Shown piece by piece: positions 2,014-25,018 of a DNA stretch of 35,665 bases (position 1 is the first letter of the stretch; the number at the start of each line of letters is the position of its first letter). Location: positions 1 through 35,665 of the IMG/VR virus record IMGVR_UViG_3300050026_000677; one strand, given 5' to 3'. The position numbers and the translations under genes are program-made. The notes under the pieces are model-generated. The model was not told the origin of the DNA. It saw nothing but the letters and a program-made list of their open reading frames with translations, and ran no database searches. This DNA comes from a virus.

Positions 2014-5000
2014 TTATATTTTAGCCCCGCTTGTTCCACCACCACCGCTCGTATCCCCGAACGGCTTCACTCGCATGTACGCAGCGGTCGATCCCCAGGA
2101 CTTTACAAGGAATTCGATATCGCGCTCGTACAGTTGCAGGTTCGTACCGGTCGCGCTGAGTTGCCAGTAGCGGCCCTTGAACGGCGGACACGGGTTATAC
2201 ATCTTGACCGGTGTTCCGGAAGACGGTAACGCCGCCAGCGTAACGGGCGCGCCGCCGTCCACGATCACGCTTACGATCCCGCCTCCTATCCCGCACGTAT
2301 AGGCAGTCCAGATTTCGCGGCAATGTAGATACCCGGACTGGCCAAGCGCGGTAGGCTGCGAGATCCAGTAGTTCGCCGGCTCCGGTTCAATTTCATAGAC
2401 CCATTCCGAATCCGGCCATACCTCCCAGGGAACGTCGTCCATCGGTACGAGCCGCATCATGTGGCCGCGGAACGGAGCGGAAAAGGAAAAGGGAATCGTC
2501 TGCTCTCCGTTCGCGCTCACGGTCATTACCAGCGCCGCACTCGTCTGATACCCGTCGTATTGCACTTGCACTTGCTTCGGTTGACCAAACGTATTGAAAT
2601 GCAGCCTGATACCTTGAACGAATTTATAATGCAGGCCAGCCCCGCCGCCGCCCCAGTCCGTAACGCGGGCGGTCGTGATCTCGGGCAGCGGAAGGAACGA
2701 CGGCTGCCATTCGTACAGCGCCACGGGTCCGGTGCCGGTAATCAGCAGCGTCAGGTTGAAATGAATCAGTGGTTCGTCGTCGGTATCAGGCGGTTCAAAA
2801 ACAAGGTCCAGGATGTTGCGAGCGCGCGTGACAGGCGGCGGCTCGTACAGCACGGTTAGGACAGGACCGGATACGAGCAGGTTATCCCAAAGGATCTGGA
2901 CGCCGGGCGACCCCATGTAATCGAACATCAGGTCGCCCCATTGCTTTACGGCGCGGCTATCACCCGCGTCCACGGCAGGCGTCAGGCAGACGTAGTCGAC
3001 GGGACCGCCCGCGTCGGCGATCGCGCCTTCCGGAGTGGTTGAGGAAACCTGATACAGATTCCCGTCCACACCACCTACCATTAACAGCGGGTTCGGTACG
3101 CCCCTTTCGAGAACGAACAAGGTCGCTTCGGGATTGTAGGTATCCTTCCGCCATCCCTTCATGGCGAGCGAGTAGACCAGCGCTTCGTACGTTCCCTGCG
3201 AATTCAGGTACGTCGCGTACACGAAGCCTTCCGCGTACCCTACCCGGAGCGAGGCGGCGGGCGCCGCGTACACGGGCGGGTAGATCGTCTGGCCGGTGAT
3301 CGTTACGGGTACGCCCGGAACACCCGGTTCGCCCGCCTGTCCGTCATGCGGAAACAACGGATCTAGGTCGGCTTCGGTCAGGTTCTCGGCGGACGGACCG
3401 AACGAATAGGCGTAGATCCCGTCCGGTCCCCAATAGAACAGGACGCGGCGCCGCGCATCGAACGCCCACGGACCGGCGATTCCCTCGACGCCGCTCAAAC
3501 GGTACGACTGGTACGGGTTGGCCGCGCCAGGCGTAGGTTCTACGCGGTAAACCGAGGACGCGGTAAAGGTGTAGTTCGATCCTTCCTGATAGAACCCGTT
3601 CAACAGCGGTTCGCTCGGCCCAGTGACCTCGATATAGCCGCTGTCGGAAGCGCCGTCCGGATTATCGACGTTCGAGAAGTACAGGAAGCCGGGGTTGAGC
3701 GGGTCGCCAACGCTCAACACCCGGTTGTTCGCTTCGTCAAGCCACCCGGCGTATAGCGGTTGTCCCTCGATCGTCGCCTCCTGGATCTGGAACGGATACG
3801 TTCCGGAGGGCGGCGCGACTGATTGTGCAAGCTGGAGGAACGTCACGCTCGCGGGCGGCGCGTACAGGCTGTACGTCTTGCCGCCGATAACGATTTCGGT
3901 GCCGCGTAACCAACGGACGTTGAACTGATCACCCGATGCCCAGACGATCGAAGTACCCGTTACGAGCGCGGTGCCGTTATGAGGTACGTCGGTCACCGGC
4001 CAGGGTTGGTAGGAGGTTACTTCAAGCGGATCGGTGATCTGCGCGGCGGCTTCGGTAATGGTGTCCTGCCATGCGTAACCGGACGCAATTGGTTGAGAGC
4101 CGACGTAATGCCAGTCCGGATTCGTTCCACCTCGACGCTCCCAATCAACGGTGTCAACCTGTGGATCACCGCTGGCCGACGCGGTGAGCGTAATCGCTTG
4201 ACGGCGTAGTATTTCACCATTTCGCGTCTCCGGACTGACCGTGCTGTGAGCGCCGGTTAGGGAATTACGATACCGATACCGCCACTGGATCGCTGGCGCT
4301 TGATTACCGGCCGTGTTGAAATTACAGTCCGGACCGTATCCGCCGCCGACCCACCAGCCGGACACCTGCGCGTTCACCACGCCGCCGCTCGTATAAATCA
4401 GGATGCCGAGCGACTGGATGTTGTTCAGCCCGAGCGTCGGATCGGTCCCGACCCGCGTCATCTCGCACAGTTTGAACATTACGTCGATCCACGCGCTTTG
4501 GCCTGTGTTGAAGATCACCGGATTCGGCGATCCTGGCGCTACAACGGTAGGGGCGAGTTCGGCGGCGACGCCATATTCGATGGCGCTCAATTGCGCGTCG
4601 ATCGTCGGAACCGTGCCGGGAAGTACTCCAGCAAGTGCAGATTGAGCGAAGTCGCTTTGTCTCAGTACGAAATAGAGGAAGTCAGTAGTGAAAGCGGAGG
4701 AGGCATCGGTCGTGGCGATGTCAACCATCACATGCACTTCGGTTACGTACTGTGGGTTGTCGAACAGCAGGCCGACATGCATGTAATCTTCGCCGGAGAT
4801 CGGACGGTCGGCAAGCTGCGTTGCGTCTACGTAGCCAGCGGTAGGATAGGCGTTCGAGAACAGGACCGCGCTCATCGAACCACCCGTAACGGTAGGGGCG
4901 AGGTTCGCCAGGATCGCGTTGCCGCTGATCGATGCGCCGTCCGCGTGCGTACTGGCCGTCCACGTGCGGAAGTTGGGAGGACTCGTAATCGTTTGGGTCG

Positions 5001-5964
5001 CGGATACGGTTACAGCTCCCGTGTCGCAGCGGAAGCTGTAAGTACCGTCCGGAGCAGCGGTCACGCTCAACACACGAACGTACGTGATGCCGTTCAAACA
5101 CAGGAGTTGATTACGCGCGAGGCCGGGAAGCGCGGCGGCGGGCACGATCGTACAAAGTCCGGAAGATCCGGTATCGTATTGGATAGCCGCGACGGTCGTG
5201 CCGGAAAGCGGCACGAACACCTGTTCGATAAACACCTGCTCGCTGTCGATCGTGATCATCGCGCCGGCGGTCATCCAGCCGTATCCGCCCGATGAAGAGA
5301 CGCCGATCGAGGCCATGCCGGGAGCGCCGGAATCGTACAGGATAACGAGCACGGTCGTCCCGACAGGGATACGGGTGGTTGTAACGGGTGTCGCTCCCGT
5401 TCCTCCCGTGTTGTTGATCGCCGCCCACTCAGAGGATACGGAGTTATCCGTTTCGGTGTCGGAAATTACTTTGTAAAGCGGCTGCGAGCGCACGGCAAGC
5501 GGTTCGGAAACCGGAGAGGCAATACCGATATTCTGCTTTGTAACACCATCCGTCTTGTAACGCTGTTGCTTCAGGGAATCATACGTGTACAGCCACGATT
5601 CGGGGGATTGCGGAGGGCGATACGATACGAGCGCGAGCGAATTGCCGCTGAAGCCGGAATCGATTTCGGTAAGCGGACTGGACGCTCCGCTATAGAGCTT
5701 CGTGCCGCTACCTACAAACCGCGCGAATGGATTTACGGCTTCCGGAACGGAGTCGTTCATCCGCGCGATCGAATGGATGGGAGAGGCGTTCGGAACGGAG
5801 GCGAGCGCGGTGATCGGCGGGCGCGTTACGAGGGCGCCTGCCTCCAGGTCCGGTTGGAGGTTGAACAGGAGCGAACAGCGGCCGGGAGGAAGCGAATCGG
5901 GCGGGTGATGAATGTCCATCCCGGTGTACGAGAATTTACCGGGGATGCGTTTGAACTCAGGCAT
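2014..5964 (-). CDS. Large tail nozzle / beta-propeller tail protein
   Basis: This is a 1316-residue beta-rich protein with no signal peptide. Around residues 745-800 it has NRVLSVGDPLNPGFLYFSNV followed by a 'PLLNGFYQEGSNYTFTASSVYRVEP' type segment, and near 840 it has RRRVLFYWGPDGIYAYSFG followed by NLTEADLDPLFP. This succession (release-site statement, vendor-style 'g.l......l.vft..siy', then 'fl..dGiy.ys......Ls...d.lF') is typical of the propeller proteins that form the distal tail tube of podoviruses (T7 gp12 and P22 gp10 type). It is much longer than those, roughly 500-800 residues, so extra beta domains are present. I chose the ATG at 5964 (MPEFKRIPGK) over the GTG at 5988; it overlaps the upstream stop by a few bases. 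It follows an adaptor-like gene, as expected for tail tube assembly. Assignment is by motif and context, without a database search. Confidence 0.7.
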   Translation of the reverse strand: MPEFKRIPGKFSYTGMDIHHPPDSLPPGRCSLLFNLQPDLEAGALVTRPPITALASVPNASPIHSIARMNDSVPEAVNPFARFVGSGTKLYSGASSPLTEIDSGFSGNSLALVSYRPPQSPESWLYTYDSLKQQRYKTDGVTKQNIGIASPVSEPLAVRSQPLYKVISDTETDNSVSSEWAAINNTGGTGATPVTTTRIPVGTTVLVILYDSGAPGMASIGVSSSGGYGWMTAGAMITIDSEQVFIEQVFVPLSGTTVAAIQYDTGSSGLCTIVPAAALPGLARNQLLCLNGITYVRVLSVTAAPDGTYSFRCDTGAVTVSATQTITSPPNFRTWTASTHADGASISGNAILANLAPTVTGGSMSAVLFSNAYPTAGYVDATQLADRPISGEDYMHVGLLFDNPQYVTEVHVMVDIATTDASSAFTTDFLYFVLRQSDFAQSALAGVLPGTVPTIDAQLSAIEYGVAAELAPTVVAPGSPNPVIFNTGQSAWIDVMFKLCEMTRVGTDPTLGLNNIQSLGILIYTSGGVVNAQVSGWWVGGGYGPDCNFNTAGNQAPAIQWRYRYRNSLTGAHSTVSPETRNGEILRRQAITLTASASGDPQVDTVDWERRGGTNPDWHYVGSQPIASGYAWQDTITEAAAQITDPLEVTSYQPWPVTDVPHNGTALVTGTSIVWASGDQFNVRWLRGTEIVIGGKTYSLYAPPASVTFLQLAQSVAPPSGTYPFQIQEATIEGQPLYAGWLDEANNRVLSVGDPLNPGFLYFSNVDNPDGASDSGYIEVTGPSEPLLNGFYQEGSNYTFTASSVYRVEPTPGAANPYQSYRLSGVEGIAGPWAFDARRRVLFYWGPDGIYAYSFGPSAENLTEADLDPLFPHDGQAGEPGVPGVPVTITGQTIYPPVYAAPAASLRVGYAEGFVYATYLNSQGTYEALVYSLAMKGWRKDTYNPEATLFVLERGVPNPLLMVGGVDGNLYQVSSTTPEGAIADAGGPVDYVCLTPAVDAGDSRAVKQWGDLMFDYMGSPGVQILWDNLLVSGPVLTVLYEPPPVTRARNILDLVFEPPDTDDEPLIHFNLTLLITGTGPVALYEWQPSFLPLPEITTARVTDWGGGGAGLHYKFVQGIRLHFNTFGQPKQVQVQYDGYQTSAALVMTVSANGEQTIPFSFSAPFRGHMMRLVPMDDVPWEVWPDSEWVYEIEPEPANYWISQPTALGQSGYLHCREIWTAYTCGIGGGIVSVIVDGGAPVTLAALPSSGTPVKMYNPCPPFKGRYWQLSATGTNLQLYERDIEFLVKSWGSTAAYMRVKPFGDTSGGGGTSGAKI
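5952..5963. repeat. 12-bp direct repeat, copy 1
   Basis: TGAACTCAGGCA on the plus strand. It covers the stop of the 93-residue gene and the first codons of the nozzle gene. An identical copy lies at 6226-6237. Confidence 0.85.
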
Positions 5965-6238: not shown

Positions 6239-7556
6239 GCGCTACCTCCATCTCAGATTTCAACGCAGGCTGCTGGAGTTGACCACGATAGAAGGCGATC
6301 GCGTCTAACCTCGCGTTCTGTAGTTTAGCCGCCGCGATCAGGTTCGCGTACAGTCGACTCGTTCCATCGAACTCCGCGCCACCCATCTTGAACGAGGCAA
6401 TGTGTTGAGCATAGTCGAGCACCGGGTCGATCTGGCCTCGCGGCACCTGGAGGTAACCGCTTACCGGCGCGTTCACCACCATCCAGAGGCCGACACCGTA
6501 CGCCGCGTCCGGCGTCTGACCGATACAGGCCATGTTGCGGCCACACATGCCGACGAACGACGGAGCGCCGGTTGTCAATTGCCAGTCCGGAAGGTAGGCG
6601 TCTATGTCGAAGACCGAGCCGATGCCGCATGTGGTATTGTCGATATCGGCGGTAAGAACCGATGGATAAAGACGTACTAGTTGAACGAATTCTGTATAAC
6701 GTTGTTCACAGTAAGCTGCTCGAACAAAGTCGCGAGATGGACCGTCAGATCCTAAAATGTCCGCGAGCACGCCCCACTTTAGAGCGGGTGAAAGATCATC
6801 TGGAATCTGCAAGAGAACTGGTGTGGCAACGTTTAAGTTTAGCTGCACTCCGCTCGTTACAAGGAGACAATCCAGAAATCCCTCATTCAGAGGAGGCGGA
6901 ACCATCCTGATCTGCTGCGGTCCGACGCCGAACACCGAGTAGCTGACCGGCTGATCCGGATTCTGTTCCGCTCCTGGAACGTACGCCTGTTCCGCCCATT
7001 CGTCTAACCGACCGAGCGGGTACGCCGGGTTCGCGGGCGGCGTCGTTTGAGGAAGCGGTATCCAGGCGGTCCGCCTTACATCGAACGTTCCTTCGGGAAG
7101 CGGAGCGATATCGGTCGGCGGCGACGGACCGGCGATCATCTGTTGCGTGACGCGGCATCCCGTATCGTCTAGGAAGCGGTTCAGCCGGTTCTGCATCGCA
7201 ACTTGTAACTGCGCGAACGTGAACTGGCCGGTGCCAACCCACCCTGGAGCGAGCGCCGGTTCCAGGAGCGCGGCGAGAACGTTGTTCGCCACCTCTACGT
7301 CGGTCGCGGTATAGGCGATCGCCGCGTTGTTCGTCGCTCCGGTCAAGTTCGGTAAATCGTAATAGAGAACGTTGGCGGCGGTAGGGAAAGCGATCTTCTG
7401 CTTGTAGGATGCGGTCAGGAGTTGATGGAAGCGAACCGATTCGATGATCGCGTTCAGGAGTTCGTCCGGCTGATTCCAGTAGACGAACCCCGTGTCCTGG
7501 AGGCGGCTGGCTAAAGCCGCAACGGCTTGCGCGAACGTGAGATAGCTATAAGCCAC
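6231..7556 (-). CDS. Head-tail adaptor-like protein, long form
   Basis: This 441-residue protein opens with MAYSYLTFAQAVAALASRLQD, an alpha-helical start, then WNQPDELLNAIIESVRFHQL, followed by beta-rich segments and a helical C-terminal half (LSPALKWGVLADILGSDGPS, AYCEQRYTEFVQLVRLYPSV). The plan resembles the 357-residue adaptor-like protein at 8.3-9.4 kb: an N-terminal 'TF.q....l' helix, a helix pair, then beta structure. Its position just before the nozzle gene fits a second connector ring or a tail-completion protein. The stretch coding for roughly residues 220-300 (about 6650-6900) is lower in GC than the rest, so this part may have been exchanged. The function is inferred; family-level identity is uncertain. 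Confidence 0.65.
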   Translation of the reverse strand: MAYSYLTFAQAVAALASRLQDTGFVYWNQPDELLNAIIESVRFHQLLTASYKQKIAFPTAANVLYYDLPNLTGATNNAAIAYTATDVEVANNVLAALLEPALAPGWVGTGQFTFAQLQVAMQNRLNRFLDDTGCRVTQQMIAGPSPPTDIAPLPEGTFDVRRTAWIPLPQTTPPANPAYPLGRLDEWAEQAYVPGAEQNPDQPVSYSVFGVGPQQIRMVPPPLNEGFLDCLLVTSGVQLNLNVATPVLLQIPDDLSPALKWGVLADILGSDGPSRDFVRAAYCEQRYTEFVQLVRLYPSVLTADIDNTTCGIGSVFDIDAYLPDWQLTTGAPSFVGMCGRNMACIGQTPDAAYGVGLWMVVNAPVSGYLQVPRGQIDPVLDYAQHIASFKMGGAEFDGTSRLYANLIAAAKLQNARLDAIAFYRGQLQQPALKSEMEVARA

Positions 7557-7566
7557 ATCCGATCAG

Positions 7567-7782
7567 CTATGGAGCAGGAGTGAAATCGACGTAGTAGTAC
7601 TTTCCGATTTCAAACTTAGACGCCGCCGCTTCGTTCACAGTCTGCACGTTGAACTGGGCAGATGGTGTTGCCTTGAAATACTTTTCATTTTCCTCGGAAC
7701 CAGCATATACAGCGTAGAATCCAAGGCTGAAACCACCGTCTCCAAGATTGACTTTGGAGCCTAATGCGACCTTGCAACGCAT
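7567..7782 (-). CDS. Unknown small protein (71 residues)
   Basis: The ATG at 7782 is preceded by a purine-rich GGGGGA site. The protein reads MRCKVALGSKVNLGDGGFSL at the start and ends KFEIGKYYYVDFTPAP, a compact beta-type sequence with Tyr-Tyr-Tyr-Val-Asp near the end. No family is recognised. Base composition is more AT-rich than in the neighbouring structural genes. It sits between two putative connector genes and a short basic protein, so it may be a minor virion protein or an accessory gene. Confidence 0.65.
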   Translation of the reverse strand: MRCKVALGSKVNLGDGGFSLGFYAVYAGSEENEKYFKATPSAQFNVQTVNEAAASKFEIGKYYYVDFTPAP

Positions 7783-7794
7783 CGTTTTGTCCCC

Positions 7795-7992
7795 CTAGAA
7801 AGGTTTAATGATTTTTCCCGCCGTCTGCGCCGAGCGAACGCTCGCGGCGCCGGTCTTAATGTCGGTCCGCATCGTATTCGCCGCGATCTTCGGCCGCAGC
7901 GGCGACTTCCGAATCAAGCCGTGTTGCGAGGCGGCCATCGGAGAGTTGAGCGGCCCGAACATGTGGCCGCCGGTCGTTAGTTTCTTTGCCAT
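7795..7992 (-). CDS. Short basic protein A (65 residues), paralogue of protein B
   Basis: The start is set by a perfect AGGAGGT seven bases before the ATG at 7992; a longer reading from 8025 has no ribosome site. The protein begins MAKKLTTGGHMFGPLNSPMA and continues ASQHGLIRKSPLRPK. The block SPMA-x2-HGL-x2-K-x-P-x2-P recurs in protein B (8124-8309), so the two are diverged duplicates. Both are basic, short, rich in Gly, Pro, Ser and Thr, and have no membrane segment. They lie between the two adaptor-like genes. A virion-internal, DNA-contacting or head-completion role is possible but not shown by the sequence. Confidence 0.75.
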   Translation of the reverse strand: MAKKLTTGGHMFGPLNSPMAASQHGLIRKSPLRPKIAANTMRTDIKTGAASVRSAQTAGKIIKPF

Positions 7993-8005
7993 CGTTATAA
8001 CCTCC

Positions 8006-8024
8006 TGGCGTCTGCAAAACGCCA
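8006..8024 (-). promoter_or_regulatory. Stem-loop abutting the ribosome site of protein A
   Basis: On the minus strand TGGCGT pairs with ACGCCA across a 7-base loop, and the AGGAGG of the next gene (8001-8005 side) follows immediately. It could mask or expose the ribosome site, or protect a processed mRNA end. The 130-base gap upstream (7993-8123) holds no ORF with a start site that I trust. Confidence 0.45.
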
Positions 8025-8123
8025 AATCCCGTCCAAGGAAATTGAAGACCGGGGATCATTGCCGCCGCACCGACTCCCCCCTGCCATAGATACCTCAGAA
8101 TGTGCGGTCCAAGGCAGAGATCA

Positions 8124-8309
8124 TTAAACGCTTTGGGAACGTGGTCGCGGCGAACTGATCGTCGTCCCTCCGCTCATGGACTTCCGCTTCGCGATATTCG
8201 TTCCGGCCGGATGCATCGGACCCTTCGCTACGAGGCCGTGCGCCGGCGTCGCCATTGGGGAGCGGACGCCGCCGATCATCCCGGCCTTCGCTCCACGTGA
8301 AAGTTTCAT
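8124..8309 (-). CDS. Short basic protein B (61 residues), paralogue of protein A
   Basis: The ATG at 8309 follows AAAGGAG with normal spacing, and earlier in-frame starts lack one. It begins MKLSRGAKAGMIGGVRSPMA and then TPAHGLVAKGPMHP, matching protein A at SPMA-x2-HGL-x2-K-x-P-x2-P. The C-terminus is Ser/Arg/Lys-rich (KRKSMSGGTTISSPRPRSQS). It is probably disordered, positively charged and cytoplasmic or virion-internal. It lies 25 bases after the adaptor gene start region and before protein A in transcription order. No family name can be given. Confidence 0.75.
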   Translation of the reverse strand: MKLSRGAKAGMIGGVRSPMATPAHGLVAKGPMHPAGTNIAKRKSMSGGTTISSPRPRSQSV

Positions 8310-8334
8310 CGGTAAACTCCTTTCAATCAATTCA

Positions 8335-9408
8335 TTATACAGGCGGAAGAATCGAACTGATATCGTGCGATTGCAAGAACTCGCCGCCCAACGGGAACGA
8401 GAACCCGCCGTTAAATACAAAAGGTTTTGGCGACGGCATCAGTTCATCATCTTCCTTGACACATAACCGCAGGGTCGCACGGTACTCTTCGTTCATCATC
8501 GTACAGTACGTAACCCAGTTCGTACCTTGCAGATCTTTGAATCGTGGCGTGTTCGCGAGCGCCCACTGACCGGCGAACACCTTCGCTTGGAACGTCACGA
8601 GATCATCCAAGGCGTACGATACGCTAGGAAGCTGCGTCGTCATCGTTAACAACGGACCCTTCGTAACCATGTTCACCTGGTACGTAGCCGGATTCACCGG
8701 GTTCGGATACATCTCGTACACGGGCTGGCCGAGCGAGTTCGTCCCGTACAGCGCAAGGATGTAGGCGTCTCCTTGCCCTCCCCGCTGCGGGTCGATCCGG
8801 TTCAAATCCTCCTGGCTGAAGTAGAGCGACCGCCCGGTGATCGCGTACCCGTCCAGCAGGTTCGTAATCGAAAGATACCTGGCGAACTGTCCGTCCGCTC
8901 CAGTCGAGGTAACAGGAAGGAACGGCGCGGCGTAATAACACTTCAGAACTTGGTAGGAGAGACCGATGCCGCTCGCCTGGCCATACGGCGCGTCGATCGT
9001 GAGGTTTCCCGCTCCGTCCCACGTCACGATCGAGTAGTTCGGACCGATCGGCGCAGCCATCCCGCTTTGCGAGGTTCCGAGGCGTATCTGATACCCTACC
9101 CCCAGAATTGGTGATGCGAGAGGCGGATTGCCGAATACGATCGCGTTCAGTGCGGCAGTCGCGGCGGCGTTCATCGTGACCGCCGTCGAGTTGAACGTTA
9201 CACTACAAGTCCCTACCGATACGACCGCCGGCACGAATATCTGCGCGTTCGATACGACCTGCCACGACCACATACGGTAGTCGTTCACCCGCTTCCAGGC
9301 GCGATTGATAATGCGCGACGCCATCGGATCGGGAAGGGAAGATATTTCGCCGGTCAGCTCTTTGTAGAGCTGCTGGAACGTCAGCATCGGATATGGCAAG
9401 GCAGGCAT
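8335..9408 (-). CDS. Head-tail adaptor (connector) protein
   Basis: This 357-residue protein has an N-terminal helical hairpin: LTFQQLYKELTGEISSLPDP, then MASRIINRAWKRVNDYRMWS. This is the usual look of podovirus gp11-type or gp4-type adaptor proteins that bind under the portal, where a helix bundle is followed by an inserted beta domain. The middle (60-200) is beta-rich; the C-terminal third has helices (ALDDLVTFQAKVFAGQWALA) and a charged tail. Its position after the capsid genes and before the tail genes fits a role in closing the portal and docking the tail. The ATG at 9408 has only a weak ribosome site. It is similar in plan to the 441-residue gene downstream. Confidence 0.7.
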   Translation of the reverse strand: MPALPYPMLTFQQLYKELTGEISSLPDPMASRIINRAWKRVNDYRMWSWQVVSNAQIFVPAVVSVGTCSVTFNSTAVTMNAAATAALNAIVFGNPPLASPILGVGYQIRLGTSQSGMAAPIGPNYSIVTWDGAGNLTIDAPYGQASGIGLSYQVLKCYYAAPFLPVTSTGADGQFARYLSITNLLDGYAITGRSLYFSQEDLNRIDPQRGGQGDAYILALYGTNSLGQPVYEMYPNPVNPATYQVNMVTKGPLLTMTTQLPSVSYALDDLVTFQAKVFAGQWALANTPRFKDLQGTNWVTYCTMMNEEYRATLRLCVKEDDELMPSPKPFVFNGGFSFPLGGEFLQSHDISSILPPV

Positions 9409-10562: not shown

Positions 10563-11756
10563 TTACGAAGTGACTCCGTACCCCTGCACACCGGTCCAGG
10601 GGGCTACGTCTTCCACGTTCACCGCGGCCTTCAGTTGCGAGGCGACGCGGGTATTATCCGGAGCGCGGATGAAGTCGGTAGGCATGAAGCCGAACTCGCT
10701 CGAAGCGCTCAACCGGAAGGCGATCCGCGAGAGGTTGAACATGCAGCCTACTTCGCCGACCGTAACCGAGGTGTTCACCGGGAAGTTCGAGAGCGTGGTC
10801 GCGGGCGTGGTAAAGACGCCGGTTAGGTTGGAGCCTCCTGGATTGTTTGTCTTGCCGTACGCCGCGAAGCTCGACGGGAAGTAGTCGTCGATCATCACGA
10901 TCAGGTTTTTGAAGCGGAACCCCATCGCGCCGAAGAACGGATCACGAACACCCGCGCCTTCCTGGCCGAACCGCTGCTGCTGCTGAATCCGGTTCTCGAC
11001 GAAGTTGTTGAGTGGCTTGTTCATGGTGAACAGGTCCGGTTCGTCCTGGCCGCGTTTCGCTGTGATGTACATGGCGTTGATGGCCGCATACTGGATTGTG
11101 CCGGCGACGCCAGAGGCTTGACCGAGCCAGTAGGTATTGCCATTGAGCGCCGCGCCGATCGCGCCGTTGCGTTGCGCCGTTCCGTATGTCGCGTAGGCGT
11201 TCCCATCGTACGACGGATCAACACCGTTGTTCAGGAACTCCGGCCAGCCGTTCATATTGATCGTACGCGGTGCGACTTGGCCGTTCTGTTGCAGATCGAG
11301 CGCCATGATCGTGCTCATCGTAAGGTAGGCGTTCGCCATATCCGTTTCGAGGAGCGAGAAGACCGCGAGGTCGCCGGTGTTGAGAACCGAAATATCTTCC
11401 AGATACTCGATGACCATCACCACGTAGTACCGCGGGTCGAAGATGTTCGATGAGATCGTCAGCGGCTTCGTCAGGTTGAATCCGCCGATTCCCTTCGCGT
11501 AGGCGCCGCCCATGAGCGGAGCGTACAGTTGCAGGTTCCGCATGAAGGCGCCGCCTTCAAACGGGACAAGACACTTCGAGCGGAGGTGGGCCTGGAAAAC
11601 CGAGGACAGGAAAAACTCATCCTCGATCGCGTCCTGGTTCACTTCCGGAAGCGTTGTTTCGTTGATTGGATCTAAGAGTGGGTCCGCGCCACCGGCGATA
11701 GGCCCGTGGTCCTGTAGCCACTTAATCAGATCCTCGTGCGTATAACGGTAACGCAT
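10563..11756 (-). CDS. Major capsid protein
   Basis: This 397-residue protein begins MRYRYTHEDLIKWLQDHGP. It is placed after a scaffold-like gene and before a decoration-like gene, and its length is typical for HK97-fold coat proteins. Features that fit include an extended acidic N-terminal arm (VNQDAIEDEFFLSS), long mixed alpha/beta segments (FDPRYYVVMVIEYLEDISVL; NAYLTMSTIMALDLQQNG), a Gly/Asn-rich central loop and a C-terminal beta part (EVGCMFNLSRIAFRLSASSE). The ATG at 11756 is chosen over the GTG at 11762 because AAAGGAGA gives better spacing to it. Assignment is by context and general fold pattern; a fold search would be decisive. Confidence 0.8.
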   Translation of the reverse strand: MRYRYTHEDLIKWLQDHGPIAGGADPLLDPINETTLPEVNQDAIEDEFFLSSVFQAHLRSKCLVPFEGGAFMRNLQLYAPLMGGAYAKGIGGFNLTKPLTISSNIFDPRYYVVMVIEYLEDISVLNTGDLAVFSLLETDMANAYLTMSTIMALDLQQNGQVAPRTINMNGWPEFLNNGVDPSYDGNAYATYGTAQRNGAIGAALNGNTYWLGQASGVAGTIQYAAINAMYITAKRGQDEPDLFTMNKPLNNFVENRIQQQQRFGQEGAGVRDPFFGAMGFRFKNLIVMIDDYFPSSFAAYGKTNNPGGSNLTGVFTTPATTLSNFPVNTSVTVGEVGCMFNLSRIAFRLSASSEFGFMPTDFIRAPDNTRVASQLKAAVNVEDVAPWTGVQGYGVTS

Positions 11757-11769
11757 TTCCACTCTCCTT

Positions 11770-12822
11770 TTATGCTGACTTACGACCGTAACCTCCGGTC
11801 GCTAACTTCTCCAAATGTTTCGCGGCGGCCCGCTGCGCGCCGGTAGGCCCGCGATCACCCATCTGCCTTACGTGCTGGCCGGGTTTTACGTCGAGCGACG
11901 GGACGCCGCCCGCGTCCGCCACGGGACTCTTGTTCGGGTCCATCTCGAAGGTGCGGAACTTCGTCTTGAAAGCGGACGATATGTTGGCGCCCGCGCCGAG
12001 GTCGGCCTGGCGCGGGGTCACCACTTCGAGCGCTTCCTTCTGGCGCTTGTCGGCATCCGCCTTCTCGCGCTCCGCCGCCCACTCGGACTTGAGGCGTTCA
12101 TCGCGCTTCTGCATCCGCAGGCCGGTATCGCCGCCAACCGAATACTTGTCCTGCCAGATCCCGTAGATCGACCCCTTGCCCATCGAGGAATCGCTACCCG
12201 ATTGAGCGGCCTTCAGGATCTCCTGCTTTTCGGCGAACGTGAGCCGTTTCCCGGTCAGTTCCTCATGCTCGCGGTCAATCTCGCCCCATATAAGAGGGAT
12301 AGAGGCCATCGAGCCGAGTTCCGGGGTCATGGCGGTTACGAACTTCTGTTCCATCCGCTTCATCAGGTCGTCGCCGAATGCCTTGAAACGGGTATCCAGA
12401 TCCTCCGTGTTATCGACCGGCTTACCGCTCTTGCGGGTTTCGATCAGATCGCTCATTCCAGGGAGGTCGTCGTCGGTAAGACTATACTTGTCCTGAAGGA
12501 TCTTCATCAGCTCACGCGCCTTTGCGGTCGAGATCCGCTGACCGGCGAGTTCCTTCAAGATCCCGTTCTTCTCCGTTTCGGCCGCTTCCAGGGCCTTGCG
12601 AAGGGTTTCGAGCTGCGCTCCCTGACCCTCGAACTGCTTTCGTTCGTCAGCGAGCGCCTGCGTTTTCCTGCTGTAATCCGCAGTGCGCGTGAAGCCGCCG
12701 ACGAACTTTACAGCAAGGGCGTCGTTCGCGGCGTACCGCGTGCGGAGAAAATCCGCCATTTCCTTGTCGTCGCCAGCGGCCTCGGCAATACACTGTTCCA
12801 AAAGCTGTTTATCTACCGGCAT
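11770..12822 (-). CDS. Capsid scaffolding protein
   Basis: This 350-residue, highly charged protein has a long predicted coiled coil at about 52-105 (SRKTQALADERKQFEGQGAQ, LETLRKALEAAETEKNGILK). More helices follow (RFKAFGDDLMKRMEQKFVTA; KRDERLKSEWAAEREKADAD), and the C-terminal end is basic (AAAKHLEKLATGGYGRKSA). Coiled-coil content, lack of beta structure and position just upstream of the capsid gene are typical of scaffolds; the basic tail is where scaffolds usually contact the coat. AAAGGA precedes the ATG at 12822. No protease motif is visible within it. Confidence 0.8.
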   Translation of the reverse strand: MPVDKQLLEQCIAEAAGDDKEMADFLRTRYAANDALAVKFVGGFTRTADYSRKTQALADERKQFEGQGAQLETLRKALEAAETEKNGILKELAGQRISTAKARELMKILQDKYSLTDDDLPGMSDLIETRKSGKPVDNTEDLDTRFKAFGDDLMKRMEQKFVTAMTPELGSMASIPLIWGEIDREHEELTGKRLTFAEKQEILKAAQSGSDSSMGKGSIYGIWQDKYSVGGDTGLRMQKRDERLKSEWAAEREKADADKRQKEALEVVTPRQADLGAGANISSAFKTKFRTFEMDPNKSPVADAGGVPSLDVKPGQHVRQMGDRGPTGAQRAAAKHLEKLATGGYGRKSA

Positions 12823-12876: not shown

Positions 12877-13230
12877 TTACGCTGTCGTATTCGGAACCGG
12901 CTGTTCGGCCAGCCCCGGACTTGATACGATCTGCCTTTGTGCGGAGCGGATCGCCTCCGATGCGGAACGGAGAGCCTTCGTCGCAGTCGGATAGGACTGT
13001 CCCATTTCGAGAAGCGAGGCTTCCATGGAGCGCAACGCCTGAATGTCTTGTTTCAACTTCGCGTCGGCGGACGAGCCGCCCACAGGCGTACCACCTTCCG
13101 CTCCTGCGCCGGGAGAACCGGCGCCTGGAACAGGAGCCGATAGATCACCTCCGCCGCCTTGCGGGGAGGGAGCGTTCATGCCAGCCATTTGCGTAGGGGA
13201 CGCGGACGCGGGTGAATTGACTTCAGGCAT
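12877..13230 (-). CDS. Unknown head-operon protein with low-complexity N-terminus
   Basis: This is a 117-residue protein. Residues 1-55 are Pro/Gly/Ala/Ser-rich (GAGSPGAGAEGGTPVGG) and likely disordered. Residues 57-100 form an amphipathic helix (ADAKLKQDIQALRSMEASLL; ATKALRSASEAIRSAQRQIV). It is the first ordinary gene after the leader and precedes the scaffold. The start at 13230 lacks a clear Shine-Dalgarno, and a strong hairpin sits about 37 bases upstream, so translation may be restrained. A head assembly helper or internal protein is possible. Confidence 0.65.
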   Translation of the reverse strand: MPEVNSPASASPTQMAGMNAPSPQGGGGDLSAPVPGAGSPGAGAEGGTPVGGSSADAKLKQDIQALRSMEASLLEMGQSYPTATKALRSASEAIRSAQRQIVSSPGLAEQPVPNTTA

Positions 13231-13266
13231 TCGGAAAAAGATCCATTCGGTTATACAAAGGGCTAT

Positions 13267-13298
13267 GGGAAGCGGTCCGTATTACCGAACCGCCTCCC
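13267..13298 (-). promoter_or_regulatory. Strong 13-bp hairpin between micro-ORFs and head genes
   Basis: On the minus strand GGGAGGCGGTTCG and CGGACCGCTTCCC pair across GTAATA with two G-U pairs. No U-run follows, so it is more likely an mRNA stability, processing or attenuation element than a full terminator. Confidence 0.5.
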
Positions 13299-13335
13299 GG
13301 TTTAACTACCTAGTCCCGTCACAAGCGATTACCAG

Positions 13336-13392
13336 TTACGGGCGGGACCCTTTCCGCTTGTGGGGACGCATTTTGCCACGGCGTTTTGCCAT
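13336..13392 (-). CDS. Micro-ORF: 18-residue strongly basic peptide
   Basis: The ATG at 13392 follows CTGGAGGTG with ideal spacing, one of the best ribosome sites in the window. The product MAKRRGKMRPHKRKGSRP has 9 Lys/Arg residues plus His among 18. It lies 24 bases after another basic micro-ORF. Such a peptide could bind RNA or DNA, act as a leader, or be packaged as an internal head peptide. Nothing beyond its charge points to a function, but the ribosome site argues that it is translated. Confidence 0.55.
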   Translation of the reverse strand: MAKRRGKMRPHKRKGSRP

Positions 13393-13416
13393 GATGCACC
13401 TCCAGTCGAACGGTTT

Positions 13417-13479
13417 CTAGCGGTGCTTTTTGCGACCGCGCCGGCTACGATCCTGCTTATCCTCGCGGATACCGATCAT
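13417..13479 (-). CDS. Micro-ORF: 20-residue basic peptide
   Basis: The ATG at 13479 has AAAGGA about 7 bases upstream. The product ends DRSRRGRKKHR, sharing an RRG-x-K-type basic block with the 18-residue peptide that follows. It overlaps the stop of a possible 22-codon leader by ATGA. Its function is unknown; two successive basic peptides with their own ribosome sites are hard to explain as chance. Confidence 0.5.
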   Translation of the reverse strand: MIGIREDKQDRSRRGRKKHR

Positions 13480-13544
13480 AACGCCATCCTTTCCCCGACG
13501 ACCGGCTCAAACCGGCTATCGGTACTCAAGATTGAACTATCCAT
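13476..13544 (-). CDS. Possible 22-residue leader peptide
   Basis: An ATG at 13544 opens 22 codons (MDSSILSTDSRFEPVVGERM then AL) ending in a TGA that overlaps the next ATG. There is no convincing ribosome site, and a small GGGC/GCCC hairpin (13546-13560) lies just upstream. It is listed because of the ATGA coupling only. Confidence 0.25.
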   Translation of the reverse strand: MDSSILSTDSRFEPVVGERMAL

Positions 13545-13570
13545 CCGGGCGAAAGGCCCTAGAAACACGA

Positions 13571-13608
13571 AAGGCGGATACCGGCCGGTTAAAGCCGATA
13601 TCCGCCTT
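13571..13608 (-). terminator. Terminator-like hairpin in the head-gene leader
   Basis: A perfect 10-bp inverted repeat (AAGGCGGATA / TATCCGCCTT) has an inner CGGC/GCCG stem. On the minus strand it is followed by TCGTGTTTCT, a weak U-rich tail. It lies downstream of the fibre genes and of the promoter at 13698-13727, so it may end the fibre transcript or act as an attenuator. Confidence 0.55.
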
Positions 13609-13697
13609 CCGCTGAAACGAGGAACCCGAACGATGAAGCGCGGGAGCCTAGCTGCTTCCGGGGACGATCTACCCGAAAAGAACGCCCTTCGCCAATA

Positions 13698-13727
13698 ACC
13701 TTACGATGGAACGGGAGGGAATGTCAA
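13698..13727 (-). promoter_or_regulatory. Candidate promoter for the head-gene block
   Basis: On the minus strand TTGACA (13727-13722) is a perfect -35 box. After 18 bases comes TAAGGT (13703-13698), a weak -10. It lies just after the end of the long fibre gene and reads toward the micro-ORFs and head genes. Apart from the features listed separately, the 13231-13750 gap holds nothing else that I can identify; in particular no tRNA. Confidence 0.45.
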
Positions 13728-13750
13728 GCGGTTGCGTTCGCGGTTGCGTT

Positions 13751-16489
13751 TCAGTGTACCCCGCTCCCCACCATTCTCCCGCCTACCACGCTGGAGGGGG
13801 TGGCGGTCGTGGCCGAACCCTGAGCGCCGATAGTCACCTCGGCGAAGTTCTTATTATTTTCGGTGCTGACGATCTGACCACACGTCACGATGGACGTACA
13901 CGTGTTGCTGTATGTGCCATTACCAGCCGTGCCGCTGGCTAAAGCCACCCCAGGCCAGGAAGCTATCAGAAGCGGGTTGGCAAAATTAAGACTGCTATTG
14001 TAGGTTCCGTTCGCAACCCCAGAGCAACCGAATGTGAATGTAGTACTCGATGGCACTGAGGCGACAGTCCAAGTAGCCGCTGGCGCGCTAGCCCCTCCTC
14101 CTAGCGTGGAATCGCTTGCACCGGATACATAAATCTTCCACCCCGGCAGCAGGTTGTGGACTACAGTGGTTGTAGCCGTGCAAACTGAGGAAGACGCAAC
14201 AATGCTGGTTAATGTCCCAGCCTGCTGCACTGTCGCCTGATCGGTTGTGATATAGCCGCTGATTGCGCTGGGAATTGTAAAAGTGGTTGGACCCGTCACG
14301 GTAATCGTCCATGTGCCATTCAAGCTTGGAGCGCTCGTAACCTGGGCTATCAACACGGTGTTACCAGTTGTATACGGGTTGGCGTGGTCCGTTGTGATGG
14401 TGGTGATTCCGCTCCCAGCCACAGCCGATGTGATCGTGTACTGCATCGCGTTCCAAAGTGGCCATATCTGACGCGGTTGGACCGCCGTAAGCGCTACGTT
14501 AGTCTGGTTGGCGTTGGTGTTTCCACTGACATTCGAGACCGTCACATGATCTCCTACCGACATCCCCAAATCATCCTGCGTGACAATCCAGATTGGGCCT
14601 TGGCCTGATTGAGTCATGCCCGCGATAGAATCCGTTGGCCGTATGCCAACCCAGATATTCGCCCGCTCGCTCATCGTGGGGGAAACCCAAAGCGTTCCAC
14701 CATACGGAGAACCCTGACTTTGAACGGGAGACGGAGTTCCTCCGGTCGTGCCAGTGGAAAATCCGGCAGTCTTCAGTGACCCAGTAGTAGAATAGCGGAC
14801 CTCATAGTTCAGATTCGTGTACTTAGGGGTGATCCATCCCACCTCATAGCCCGGTTGGCTGTCACTGACCCGTGTAGGTGCCCAAACAATCGTCCGTGTG
14901 CGAACCAGCTCTTCCGGCTCGTTTAGCGTGGTGTAAAGAGTCTCGGCTCCCACAGTCATCGTCAGTGGCGTACCGTTCTGCCCATAATCGCCGTTGACAT
15001 ACCACGAAGTCAAGCCGTCAAAGTAGTGAAAGTGCGTGGTCGAATCATATCCCGTCCATCCCGAATACTGCCAAACGCCGTTATAGGATGGGTCGTTAGG
15101 CCACACTGCCGCTCCGCTTGCTCCCACTTGGTGGTCGGGAGCGGCATTGACCTCAACTTTCATGTTGCGGCCGGGATACATCGTAAAGGGCGGTCCGTAG
15201 TGATAGTAGTGCATTCCTGGACTGTTATGGACATTCTGGACGTTTCCACCTCCCTTAACGTAGGTGCCGATATAGAACGCGCCCTGCTTATTTATAGAGT
15301 TAACATTACCTATGCTGCTGTACGAAATCGGAAAGCTGAGGCGATTCACCGTCGTTGAGAACGTGCCGGATTTGATGTAGTTCTGCATGTACCCAGACCC
15401 ACGGGCATATATCCCTCCCGCCGTACCGGAGTACATAAACAGGTACGGGGAAATCTCCGGGCTTGCAAAACTAATGATAGGGCTAGAACCTGTGTAAGAC
15501 CCTGTGGAAATGCTGGAATCGACACCGGCCAGCGTGACTTGACTCGAAGATGCGACGGTTACATAGTAAGGCCGGATGTTGAGCAGGTTGTTGCTCATGT
15601 TTGAGACGTAGGCAATCCAGTTGGCCCCAAGCGTGTACCCGCTACTGCAACCAGTCGATGCCGTGCCCAAAGTTACCGTAGTCGTGCGGTCGCTGTTGAC
15701 GGTAAGGCCTGTGATTGGGCAGGCGGCAGATCCCCAATCCGGGGGAGGGTACTTGCCGTTAAATGTTCCAAACGTCCAGTACGCCCGCAAGCACTGGTGG
15801 ATGTCGCTGGAACCTGTTGTGCAGGAGTTCATAAATTGCTGGTAGCCGGAATTGGTCTGATTGTCCCAGAGGGCACCCACTTCGGCAACATTTGACCAAA
15901 CATAGCGGTTGTCCCCAGTCCAGCGCCGTAGTTGGAGCGAACCAGAGAACGCCCCGAACGAACTGGAGTTTAGGGGAATCTGTAGAGTGTTGGCGTCAAT
16001 TACTGATGCTGTCCAGCTATCAACCACGGAAGGGCTGCTGCCCGCCCAGCAGTATACATTCTCGCTGGGATCGTGCGCAGCCGCCGTGGTTCCGTTTACC
16101 CCTCGCGCCGAAAGAGTTAAAACGTTGTGATAAACCGAAGTATAGGTAGCTTCTTCACTGTCGATATGTATGGTGCCTGATGATCCACAAAAGCCTTCAT
16201 GGTCAACATCGACCGTAAGATCTGTAGCCGTAATTCCCAAAATGATCGCAAGATGACTGTGTGTGTTGATGGGAACCCACGGCCCTGTGGCCCCATAAAT
16301 TTGGAATAGAGGCGTCTGCCCGGTTGAAAATCCATGCCCGTTGTTGTAAATCAGGTTTGTGTTGGACCCGGACGAGACTACGCTGTCGGGTACCGACTCC
16401 TTCCAGTCGTTCAGTACGGCTGTCGCCTGCGCCCAGGCGGGAGCGTAGAGAATTAACAACAGTACTAAAGATCGCAATAGCTTCATCAT
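13751..16489 (-). CDS. Large secreted fibre-like protein (912 residues)
   Basis: It begins MMKLLRSLVLLLILYAPAWA then QATAV, a textbook Sec signal with an AWA|Q cleavage site. The mature part is rich in Ser, Thr, Gly, Asn and aromatic residues. The middle (about 440-560) has PPFTMYPGRNMKVEVNAAPD and YDSTTHFHYFDGLTSWYVNG, resembling carbohydrate-binding beta sandwiches. Residues 680 to the end form repeated Ig-like or fibre strands (SGITTITTDHANPYTTGNTV; PSLNGTWTITVTGPTTFTIP) with scattered Cys pairs. The ATG at 16489 is preceded by AAAGAG; a GTG two codons earlier is possible. It is the last of three consecutive secreted genes. It could be an adhesin-type virion fibre or a host-surface protein carried by the phage. 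Confidence 0.7.
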   Translation of the reverse strand: MMKLLRSLVLLLILYAPAWAQATAVLNDWKESVPDSVVSSGSNTNLIYNNGHGFSTGQTPLFQIYGATGPWVPINTHSHLAIILGITATDLTVDVDHEGFCGSSGTIHIDSEEATYTSVYHNVLTLSARGVNGTTAAAHDPSENVYCWAGSSPSVVDSWTASVIDANTLQIPLNSSSFGAFSGSLQLRRWTGDNRYVWSNVAEVGALWDNQTNSGYQQFMNSCTTGSSDIHQCLRAYWTFGTFNGKYPPPDWGSAACPITGLTVNSDRTTTVTLGTASTGCSSGYTLGANWIAYVSNMSNNLLNIRPYYVTVASSSQVTLAGVDSSISTGSYTGSSPIISFASPEISPYLFMYSGTAGGIYARGSGYMQNYIKSGTFSTTVNRLSFPISYSSIGNVNSINKQGAFYIGTYVKGGGNVQNVHNSPGMHYYHYGPPFTMYPGRNMKVEVNAAPDHQVGASGAAVWPNDPSYNGVWQYSGWTGYDSTTHFHYFDGLTSWYVNGDYGQNGTPLTMTVGAETLYTTLNEPEELVRTRTIVWAPTRVSDSQPGYEVGWITPKYTNLNYEVRYSTTGSLKTAGFSTGTTGGTPSPVQSQGSPYGGTLWVSPTMSERANIWVGIRPTDSIAGMTQSGQGPIWIVTQDDLGMSVGDHVTVSNVSGNTNANQTNVALTAVQPRQIWPLWNAMQYTITSAVAGSGITTITTDHANPYTTGNTVLIAQVTSAPSLNGTWTITVTGPTTFTIPSAISGYITTDQATVQQAGTLTSIVASSSVCTATTTVVHNLLPGWKIYVSGASDSTLGGGASAPAATWTVASVPSSTTFTFGCSGVANGTYNSSLNFANPLLIASWPGVALASGTAGNGTYSNTCTSIVTCGQIVSTENNKNFAEVTIGAQGSATTATPSSVVGGRMVGSGVH

Positions 16490-16501
16490 AGTCACAGCTC
16501 T

Positions 16502-20855: not shown

Positions 20856-23075
20856 CTACTTCGCTGAAGTACGTACTACCGAATCCGTCCCGCCGCGCTT
20901 CGTCTCCATCACCGGGGCGGACTGGAATGTCTCGGGCCGGCCACGGCCGCCTCCCTTACCGCCTCCCTTACCGCCGCCGCCGCGTTGGCCGCCGCCCATT
21001 GCAGACGCCACCCGCGCCTGGATTTCAAGCTGCGCAATCCATTTTTCGATCTCGTTGCGCGCCTCGCGCATCTCACCCGTTTCAGGATCTTTGACCATGC
21101 ACGGTCCGAAGTTCTTCACATCGAACAGTTCCGCTTGCGTCCACCAGGAAAGCGGGAAGCCGACCTTCATCAGTTGCAGCATGAAGAGTTTCCGCGTCGT
21201 GCTGTTCAACTCGTGAAGCGAATAAGGGGTGACCGAAAAACTGAAATTGTTCTTGTGCCAGCGGGCGCGCTCGAACGAACGGGTTCCTAGATCCGGCATC
21301 CGGAAGCCGCCGTGCTGGTCGATCGACCAGGAGCCGTCCGGACCTTCACGCATCTCGACCGGATTACCGCTGTTCGGATCTTTTGCGAGAGGAACGAGCG
21401 TTCCGGGTTCGTAGTCGAAGTCTTCTTCGGTTACGCCTTCCGGCCCGAGCATCCGCATCCGTCGTTTGGCGGTGGCGAACTGGAACCAGTCGGACTTCCA
21501 CATTTCGCCCGCCATCCGGATACCTTCCTCCATGTTGCGGGATTGGTCTTTTACGAGCGGACCCATCGCCTCGAGGAGTCGTTCGGTATTGTCGCCTGAA
21601 GGGATCTGGCGGGCGCGGGCGAGCGCCGATACATCAGCCACACCCATCTGCTCTTTCATCAACGCGGGGAGGATTTGCGCGGCGACCTGAATGATCTCCG
21701 GGCCGACCTGGTATTGCTGATATGGGAATACCGGCGCGAACTGCGAACCGGGAGGGTTCAGGCTCATGTCGAGTCCGGTGCGGAGGCCGGGGATACGCGG
21801 GTTCATCGTCTGTAAGAGCGATACGGCGGTAGAACCACGGTCGAAGAAGGCGGGAGGGTTCAGCGACAGGTTCATCTTGTCGTTGATGCCTCTCCAGAGT
21901 TCAATGATTACCTTTTCGAGCGATTGGCCGTAGCGCGTGACCGGGAACCCGAGGAAGTTCCACGCCCAGTCGTCGGCGCGGAATTGCACAGCCGGAACGC
22001 GGCCGTCCCAGCGGTAGGATGATTGGTGCTCCGGAGCGGGATTTACGATACAGGAGTCGGTCGCGATTATGAGACGCCTGTTCGGATATATCAGGCAGTC
22101 CTCGCGCTTCGCGATCCGGGTTTCCTGCTTACCGCCCGAGAGCTGGCGGCCCGTCGCGATCTCCTGGCCTACGAACGGAACCTCGTAACTCCACGATGTA
22201 CCCCACTGGCCATCGGGACCCATGATCTGAAGCGGGTGACCTGTTTCGTTCACCGAATCGTCGTCCACGTAGATGTAGTAGACATCGGTCGTATCCCACG
22301 TGGAAGCCTCTTCCGGTTGGCGAACACCCTGCGAGAAACGTTTCAGGACGGCGGAGGCAAACTTGACCGCCTGCGCGATCACCATGCCCTTGCCTTGCGT
22401 GGTGACGCGATTCGGTTTTACGGCGTCCCGCTGTAACGGGAACATCCGCCATACCTGATGGATCGGCATCTTCTTCCGCATCGCCACGGCGTAAGCGCCT
22501 TGCAGCGATAGGGAAGGAGGGAGGCCGAGCGGGATCACGTCGAGCGGACCGTAGGCGTCCCATACGAGGTCGCCGTCGCCGTGGTTGTAGAAGTTTGGGT
22601 CGTACCGCGGGCCGATGTAACCTGTCCCGCCGACCGACGCCCACTGCCACGCTTTACGAAGCATCCGGTCGGCGAACGTCATGTTCTGCCAGGCCATGAA
22701 TCCTTTGTTCAGGATTTGGTTTTGCTCACGGTACTGTTCCGATTCGGCCTTGAAGGCGGGGATAATACGAAGGTTCGTTTGGGCGGCGACGATCTCGCGG
22801 GTATTACGGAGCGTCTGTTCGGTCTTGACGTTTGAGAGGGACTGGACATCGGTTACCAGGAAATCGCCGTTTACAAGGTCCATCCCGTCCGAAATGTACT
22901 TGTAGGCCGGCTGCAAGCGGAGGTAAGAGCGTCCGTCCGCCAGCATGGATTGAGACCAGGCGAAGAGTTCGTCAGGCGAACAGGCATCCCAGCGGGACTG
23001 AGAGCGGTTGTAAACAAAGGGGGGAGGGCAGAGGTAGGCGGTGTCAATAGGGGAATAGCCGGGATGCCTGTTCAT
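20856..23075 (-). CDS. Portal protein
   Basis: This 739-residue protein starts at the ATG at 23075 (a GTG one codon earlier is also open). It is long, as in podoviral portals. Visible portal-like features are helical wing and stem segments (REQNQILNKGFMAWQNMTFA; LEKVIIELWRGINDKMNLSL) and a central 'GIGYI..RYDP' equivalent (WASVGGTGYIGPRYDPNFYN). A Gly-rich, basic C-terminal tail (GGGQRGGGGKGGGKGGGRGR) probably lies in the capsid lumen. The genes for terminase and capsid are nearby in the expected polarity. It forms the DNA entry channel at one capsid vertex. Assignment rests on length, context and pattern. Confidence 0.75.
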   Translation of the reverse strand: MNRHPGYSPIDTAYLCPPPFVYNRSQSRWDACSPDELFAWSQSMLADGRSYLRLQPAYKYISDGMDLVNGDFLVTDVQSLSNVKTEQTLRNTREIVAAQTNLRIIPAFKAESEQYREQNQILNKGFMAWQNMTFADRMLRKAWQWASVGGTGYIGPRYDPNFYNHGDGDLVWDAYGPLDVIPLGLPPSLSLQGAYAVAMRKKMPIHQVWRMFPLQRDAVKPNRVTTQGKGMVIAQAVKFASAVLKRFSQGVRQPEEASTWDTTDVYYIYVDDDSVNETGHPLQIMGPDGQWGTSWSYEVPFVGQEIATGRQLSGGKQETRIAKREDCLIYPNRRLIIATDSCIVNPAPEHQSSYRWDGRVPAVQFRADDWAWNFLGFPVTRYGQSLEKVIIELWRGINDKMNLSLNPPAFFDRGSTAVSLLQTMNPRIPGLRTGLDMSLNPPGSQFAPVFPYQQYQVGPEIIQVAAQILPALMKEQMGVADVSALARARQIPSGDNTERLLEAMGPLVKDQSRNMEEGIRMAGEMWKSDWFQFATAKRRMRMLGPEGVTEEDFDYEPGTLVPLAKDPNSGNPVEMREGPDGSWSIDQHGGFRMPDLGTRSFERARWHKNNFSFSVTPYSLHELNSTTRKLFMLQLMKVGFPLSWWTQAELFDVKNFGPCMVKDPETGEMREARNEIEKWIAQLEIQARVASAMGGGQRGGGGKGGGKGGGRGRPETFQSAPVMETKRGGTDSVVRTSAK

Positions 23076-23084
23076 CACCCCCTA

Positions 23085-24853: not shown

Positions 24854-25018
24854 ATGATTACACTTTCATGGTGGGAGCAATTCATCATCAACGCCGCCAT
24901 CAGTCTGTTGTCGGTGCTCGCATCCAAACTCACGAACCAGACCGAGATCGACGCCTTGAATTCCGCTATAACGTTCCTGCAAAGTCTGCTCAGGGGCGTC
25001 GTCGCGGCCAAACCCTAG
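24854..25018 (+). CDS. Counter-oriented small protein (54 residues)
   Basis: This plus-strand ORF opens with ATG at 24854, preceded by AAAGGA about 10 bases upstream, inside an otherwise wholly minus-strand block. The product reads MITLSWWEQFIINAAISLLS then VLASKLTNQTEIDALNSAIT and FLQSLLRGVVAAKP. It has one hydrophobic or amphipathic helix (about 8-25) and a second amphipathic helix (about 34-52). Its TAG shares bases with the TAG of the terminase gene on the other strand, so the two genes converge and overlap. It explains the only 240-base gap in this part of the minus-strand operon. It could be a holin regulator, a membrane-active peptide or a virion protein; no family can be named with certainty. 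Confidence 0.55.
   Translation: MITLSWWEQFIINAAISLLSVLASKLTNQTEIDALNSAITFLQSLLRGVVAAKP

Follow-up and report, generated by a model that had tools for sequence, protein, structure and literature searches.

A covarying RNA hairpin at the ribosome site of a basic micro-gene ahead of the scaffold and capsid genes in a group of soil phages

Results

We analysed the full length of the linear virus record IMGVR_UViG_3300050026_000677 from IMG/VR, a soil phage of 35,665 bases (hereafter the window). Its head genes, all on the minus strand, were called from PHROG matches that are weak yet mutually consistent (Table 1). The control region described here sits between a gene at 13751-16495 and the gene for a 117-residue protein, with the scaffold and capsid genes next. 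Read along the minus strand, a TTGACA promoter is followed by a folded leader with a terminator, a hairpin with a Shine-Dalgarno (SD) sequence, two micro-ORFs (ORF1 and ORF2) and the head genes. A sequence-only reading had pointed to a promoter-like TTGACA, two strong hairpins and at least two basic micro-ORFs with ribosome sites in this leader, and all of these are present, the hairpins being at 13611-13568 (the terminator, with its T-rich tail) and at 13526-13491 (AGTACCGAT...GTCGG), both on the minus strand. The gene at 13751-16495 encodes a 914-residue protein with a signal-peptide-like N-terminus; in relatives, the place upstream of the promoter is taken by a DUF6496 protein and a GSSLSALTG protein of ~70 residues.

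Table 1. Head genes and control-region features of the window.
Feature	Position	Strand	Description
Terminase	25015-27351	minus	PHROG match
Portal	20856-23078	minus	PHROG match
Sigma70-type promoter	13698-13727	minus	-35 TTGACA 13727-13722, 18-nt spacer, -10 TAAGGT 13703-13698
5' leader segment	13654-13690	minus	Conserved GGGCGTTC...CGTCCCCGGAAGC; part pairs with sequence just past the terminator
Intrinsic terminator	13560-13611	minus	Long stem-loop AAGGCGGATATCGG...CCGGTATCCGCCTT, then TCGTGTTTCT
22-codon ORF	13476-13544	minus	MDSSILSTDSRFEPVVGERMAL; overlaps ORF1 by ATGA; spans the RNA hairpin
Conserved RNA hairpin and flanks	13485-13534	minus	YY-N-AGUA-CCGAU-A-[variable stem]-N-GUCGG-R-GAAA-GGA
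ORF1	13417-13479	minus	20 aa, MIGIREDKQDRSRRGRKKHR, 9 K/R; AAAGGA upstream; found in relatives
ORF2	13336-13392	minus	18 aa, MAKRRGKMRPHKRKGSRP; SD GGAGG; recurs in some relatives
Pro/Gly-rich coiled protein	12877-13230	minus	117 aa; first large gene downstream; kept in relatives
Scaffold-like protein	11770-12822	minus	phrog_3927, E 6e-5
Major capsid protein (MCP)	10563-11762	minus	phrog_9953, E 1e-6

Using the 117-residue protein as a query, we retrieved five IMG/VR phages, all five of which have an identical upstream layout, and two scans with hairpin patterns yielded about 24 contigs. Since a pattern search fixes its own letters, we re-retrieved loci with the MCP alone, obtaining 34 loci, 33 of which cover the control region. 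A basic micro-ORF was found at the expected place in 31 of the 33; the hairpin was clear in 29 and altered in two (L049 and L066), both of which have the ORF. L062 and L069 have neither hairpin nor micro-ORF and still have a promoter-like site and the terminator, suggesting that the hairpin is tied to the ORF. The 34 loci include near-identical copies (L043/L044/L046; L052/L053/L054) and so represent fewer distinct phages; the layout is common to some 30 related uncultivated phages. Two loose DNA pattern matches, L032 and L033, have no ORF and look like chance matches. A blastn search of the region against phage records gave no match, and neither the exact hairpin pattern nor relatives of the terminase were found in 84,980 bacterial and archaeal genomes. 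The nearest isolates are the Tunturiibacter phages Tunturi_1/2, which infect Acidobacteriota (PMC11924767). Probable homing-endonuclease-like genes occur at differing points of the head cluster (L002:6512-7021, L014:8151-8693 and L035:5009-5605), the L035 copy being annotated as HNH and the other two called by eye only.

An exact TTGACA was found within 300 nt upstream in 28 of 34 relatives, as compared to 6% in shuffled sequences, with promoter spacers of mostly 17-18 nt; the -10 of the window promoter (TAAGGT) is weak. A long-stem terminator was present in 26-27 of 34 leaders and in none of the shuffles at equal stem score. It is of the rrnB-T1 type, with a long GC stem, then GCCTTTCG or GCCTTTTG, then more T, and lies some 100-190 nt downstream of the -35 box. 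A promoter/terminator scan of the single sequence missed the site because of the weak -10 and a T run that is broken up in the tail (TTTCGTGTTTCT). Seven leaders (L007, L012, L016, L028, L030, L031 and L034) have no terminator, indicating that gating by termination would not be universal in the group. The 5' leader segment can form a long-range helix with a segment 3' of the terminator stem, such that the terminator is nested inside. This helix beat shuffles in 25 of 26 terminator-bearing leaders (mean z -1.77; 12/26 beyond -1.64; window z -1.98). As it forms only in transcripts that have read through, we infer that transcription is gated at the terminator and that the read-through leader is folded.

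The aligned hairpin reads N-AGUA-CCGAU-A-[variable stem]-N-GUCGG-R-GAAA-GGAG, followed in nearly all members by about 7-12 nt to the ATG, and the GGA at its 3' flank is the SD sequence of ORF1. Over ten base pairs, 89% of cells are paired, with 22 double-sided changes as compared to 7.6 +/- 2.3 in shuffles; the observed covariation (score 0.182, against 0.084 in shuffles and at most 0.07 once the partner strand was slid) was reached in 0/500 shuffles. At the first pair, 27 members have C-G and L043 has a compensatory A-U, a swap that came to light free of any pattern bias. A covariance model trained on the hairpin sequences matched the window at E 5e-10 and gave a single significant copy per hairpin-bearing phage record, in records of up to 63 kb, always at ORF1; that members match is built into the model, whereas their having just one copy per genome is not. 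The same model found no hairpin in Tunturi_1, L062 or L069. No Rfam 15 family matched the window, L001 or L004 at E <= 1. We conclude that this hairpin, conserved as an RNA element and without an Rfam match, contains the ribosome site of ORF1. L049 has the ORF but has lost both a clear promoter and the AGUA flank. L004 has a second, nearby copy of the AGUACCGAY...GUCG hairpin (4630-4720) and L034 a partial tandem repeat of it (5313-5348), in each case directly upstream of the micro-ORF.

The two bases 5' of N-AGUA are mostly pyrimidines and can pair with the GG of the SD sequence. Two such outer pairs are possible in 30 of 34 members, against a null expectation of 11.6 +/- 2.7. We rejected covariation in this outer helix: the GG is invariant and permuting the loci leaves the score unchanged, which indicates a conserved pairing potential and not covariation. 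In many members the outer helix has only about two pairs, so masking of the SD sequence may be weak.

Pooling all searches, we collected 34 distinct ORF1 members of 13-25 codons (e.g. MLGLREDSQARRRGGKRHKKR in L068 and MFETREDQQNRRGRRRGHKKR in L008) with a loose consensus of M-F-x-x-x-x-E-x-A-x-R-R-R-G-R-x-R-x-K-K-R. Each has 7-10 Lys+Arg whatever its length, and the SD spacing is near-constant. The charge persists across peptides that differ in length and N-terminus, the extreme cases being L009, L048 and L067 with a bare M followed by basic residues. Synonymous changes made up 93 of 219 codon changes, against 41.7 +/- 5.5 expected if the same substitutions are randomly placed, and 182 changes were at third positions, against 131 +/- 6.5 expected; 0/5000 simulations reached either value. 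The test used sixteen ungapped pairs that share members and so are not independent events; the effect was also large within close groups, where synonymous to non-synonymous ratios were 7:5, 8:5, 10:6 and 10:5. This synonymous-site comparison, which had been suggested along with the micro-ORFs, points to selection on the protein. Relatives that keep the hairpins and lose the reading frames had been named as grounds against the micro-ORFs; instead, ORF1 retains its frame, start, SD sequence and charge in 31/33 loci. Judged from these substitution patterns, ORF1 is a genuine protein-coding gene under amino-acid-level selection, previously undescribed. Profiles from PHROG, Pfam and PDB gave no match to the micro-ORFs, a search of limited sensitivity for such short sequences, and a kinship of the ORF1 peptide with ribosomal proteins was dropped as no PDB profile matched. 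The AAAAAG close to the ORF1 stop codon was also considered as a site of programmed frameshifting and rejected, as several relatives have AAGAAG there.

ORF2 has relatives in L042 (MARRGKSRPHRRKRVRM) and in L012 and L030, where the peptide (MARRGSKRPHRRKRGRY) is identical despite six synonymous codon differences, with zero amino-acid changes. The sequence-only reading had listed a third ORF, of 22 codons, overlapping ORF1 by ATGA. The ORF and its overlap exist, but a comparable frame was found in only 9 of 34 members, with inconsistent lengths and offsets, and we rejected it as a gene; it is probably a by-product of the conserved RNA hairpin. In several relatives, further basic small ORFs of 26-42 residues (e.g. 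MKRMKKRGSMKIGGKVRTPFMQRISSGKKR) lie between ORF1 and the homologue of the 117-residue protein (L012:2329-2421, L016:5883-5969, L021:2353-2481, L022:1588-1713 and L014:10303-10438). Tunturi_1 (L035, PP887698.1, 5735-5805) and Tunturi_2 (L074, 568-636) have an unannotated 22-codon Lys/Glu-rich ORF (GCAGGAGG) with a good SD sequence before the annotated gp5. A short conserved element lies 30-50 nt ahead of the 117-residue protein gene (13231-13275, minus strand, in the window), reading CCCTTTGTATAACG in the window's group and CCCGTAACTAAACGG, possibly a small hairpin, in other relatives. We considered CCCTTTGTATAACGG and CCCGTAACTAAACGG at this place as lookalikes of 23S rRNA segments, and dropped the idea as too post hoc.

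A strand with AGUA facing one with GAA marks the sarcin-ricin, or bulged-G, motif. AGUA is present in 33 of 34 aligned members of the phage hairpin, GAA precedes the SD sequence, and the inner stem covaries. The standard loop geometry of the motif is 5x4 (or 6x5) (PMC8450098). Relative to the 5x4 standard, the phage loop, known from sequence alone, is one base larger, at 5x5 or 6x4, with an extra purine before GAAA or, in L058 and L066, an extra 5' base. The hairpin at 457-474 of E. coli 23S rRNA (AGUACCGUGAGGGAAAGG) and the phage element both have AGUA / GAAA strands between CC/GG helices. Their shared consensus is expected 0.0005 times per random 2.9-kb sequence, but the true significance is much weaker because the likeness was noticed after the motif was seen.

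Discussion

We propose, with a probability of about one half, that the region controls late genes at two levels, with transcription gated by the terminator and the hairpin controlling translation of a basic micro-protein encoded by the first gene of the scaffold-capsid operon. A strong promoter would start the structured leader of this operon, the terminator would stop most transcripts until late infection, and late read-through would then admit RNA polymerase to the head genes. The read-through mRNA would carry the dedicated hairpin with its sarcin-ricin-like AGUA / R-GAAA flanks. The outer two-pair helix would take up the GG of the SD sequence, and translation of ORF1 may hinge on closure of the hairpin; here the pairing potential is seen in the alignment and control is what it suggests. 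The Arg/Lys-rich micro-protein of 13-25 residues is most likely a helper in head assembly or DNA packaging that binds nucleic acid with no strict sequence specificity, and may also bind its own leader.

Because the peptide's charge is fixed and its sequence plastic, general binding to nucleic acid in assembly or packaging is favoured, and ORF1 may simply encode a structural peptide that binds nucleic acid, with no regulation. In one alternative, possible though not likely, ORF1 is a small DNA-condensing virion or packaging peptide, and the hairpin passively enhances translation or stabilises the mRNA 5' end. Such a role fits the 7-10 Lys+Arg kept despite a varying length and N-terminus, the place of ORF1 as the first ORF ahead of the scaffold and capsid genes, where other small basic ORFs often accompany it, and Tunturi_1, where with equal gene order an unannotated 22-codon K-rich ORF (MAKESKKEMKKEELKKKKSGKK) occurs without the hairpin. 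However, a passive hairpin needs neither near-invariant unpaired AGUA/R-GAAA flanks nor a nearly fixed CCGAU/GUCGG base stem. Autoregulation, with the Arg-rich micro-protein repressing its own translation by binding to the hairpin next to its SD sequence, is unlikely. Arg-rich peptides of this size, such as lambda N and HIV Rev, do bind structured hairpins, the hairpin occurs once per genome at ORF1 only, and hairpin and ORF are missing jointly in L062 and L069; yet the peptide varies widely and the RNA core does not, and the CCGAU and ACGAU hairpin variants show no evident correlated change in the peptide. An RNA core far more rigid than the peptide argues against the peptide as the hairpin's specific ligand, and favours a conserved partner, the ribosome or another host factor. 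On these grounds we prefer a packaging or assembly peptide combined with a translational operator, and place autoregulation next.

The remaining alternatives concern the leader and the partner of the hairpin. It is rather improbable that the main product of the promoter-terminator unit is a free-standing small RNA of roughly 100-150 nt, with the micro-ORF operon served by read-through from upstream. The near-consensus promoter, the closely spaced strong terminator and the persistence of the unit in the two loci without a micro-ORF are consistent with such an RNA, but the pairing of the 5' leader with sequence past the terminator needs a read-through transcript from this promoter or an earlier one, and seven members have no terminator. 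Still less probable is that the phage element mimics the universal 23S hairpin and is bound by a host ribosomal protein or by the phage's ribosomal-protein-like micro-protein, tying capsid production to the state of the host ribosomes; if true, the phage would have its own form of ribosomal-protein operon control, based on a protein of ~20 residues. The simpler reading of the likeness would be that both RNAs draw on the same sturdy structural module. Attenuation by a leader peptide, in which micro-ORF translation controls a downstream terminator, is one of three functions put forward from the sequence and is very improbable; the other two, an RNA-binding role and a packaged or assembly basic peptide, may each still apply. 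The leader does contain short ORFs, and many relatives have a further hairpin between ORF1 and the next gene. However, the only T-tract hairpin lies 5' of the ORFs, ORF1 is selected at the amino-acid level rather than for translation irrespective of peptide sequence, and several relatives have extra small genes between ORF1 and the operon. We also rejected antitermination of the lambda N type at this region's terminator: the peptide is suitably basic, with 7-10 Lys+Arg in 13-25 residues, but the hairpin lies downstream of the terminator, on the wrong side, and not upstream as the RNA site of lambda N does.

The preferred reading, control by terminator and SD hairpin, has its closest counterparts in lambda pR'-tR', HK022 put and ribosomal-protein leaders, none of which the region matches in full. 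The lambda late unit pR'-tR' makes 6S RNA and is Q-dependent. As there, a promoter is closely trailed by an intrinsic terminator (within about 200 nt in 26-27 of 34 leaders) ahead of late or head genes; unlike there, a structured hairpin and a micro-protein follow the terminator. In ribosomal-protein operons, the encoded protein represses its own translation via the leader. The phage region similarly has a structured element at the SD sequence of a gene for a basic, putatively nucleic-acid-binding protein, but that element matches no Rfam leader family. Protein J of microviruses is a small, basic, packaged peptide that resembles ORF1 in its size of about 20-25 residues, its strongly basic make-up and a gene close to that of the capsid; no sequence relation was found, and the window phage is a dsDNA phage with a terminase. 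The HK022 put antiterminator RNA has about 70 nt and two stem-loops (PMC9378689). Both it and the phage leader are folded RNAs just past a phage promoter, a likeness of layout; unlike in put, the terminator here is nested in a long-range helix.

Gene callers skip genes of 13-25 codons, and a conserved first gene of the capsid operon in a group of soil phages therefore went unseen; the nearest isolate, Tunturi_1, holds a similar unannotated ORF. The SD sequence on which the hairpin sits belongs to a phage protein that is among the smallest conserved ones, making the region a compact, testable case of translation control ahead of capsid genes, and one in which it can be tested directly whether such peptides have a packaged role, a regulatory role or both. 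Tunturi_1/2 share with the window phage the order terminase, portal, small basic ORFs, scaffold and MCP (MCP 26% and terminase 29% identical), but the hairpin was not found in them and their micro-ORF is Lys/Glu-rich. By contrast, in L034 the hairpin and micro-ORF accompany a capsid protein (MCP at 7525-8502) that is only remotely related (profile E 5e-21), even more distant than that of Tunturi_1, suggesting that the module is ancient or has moved horizontally.
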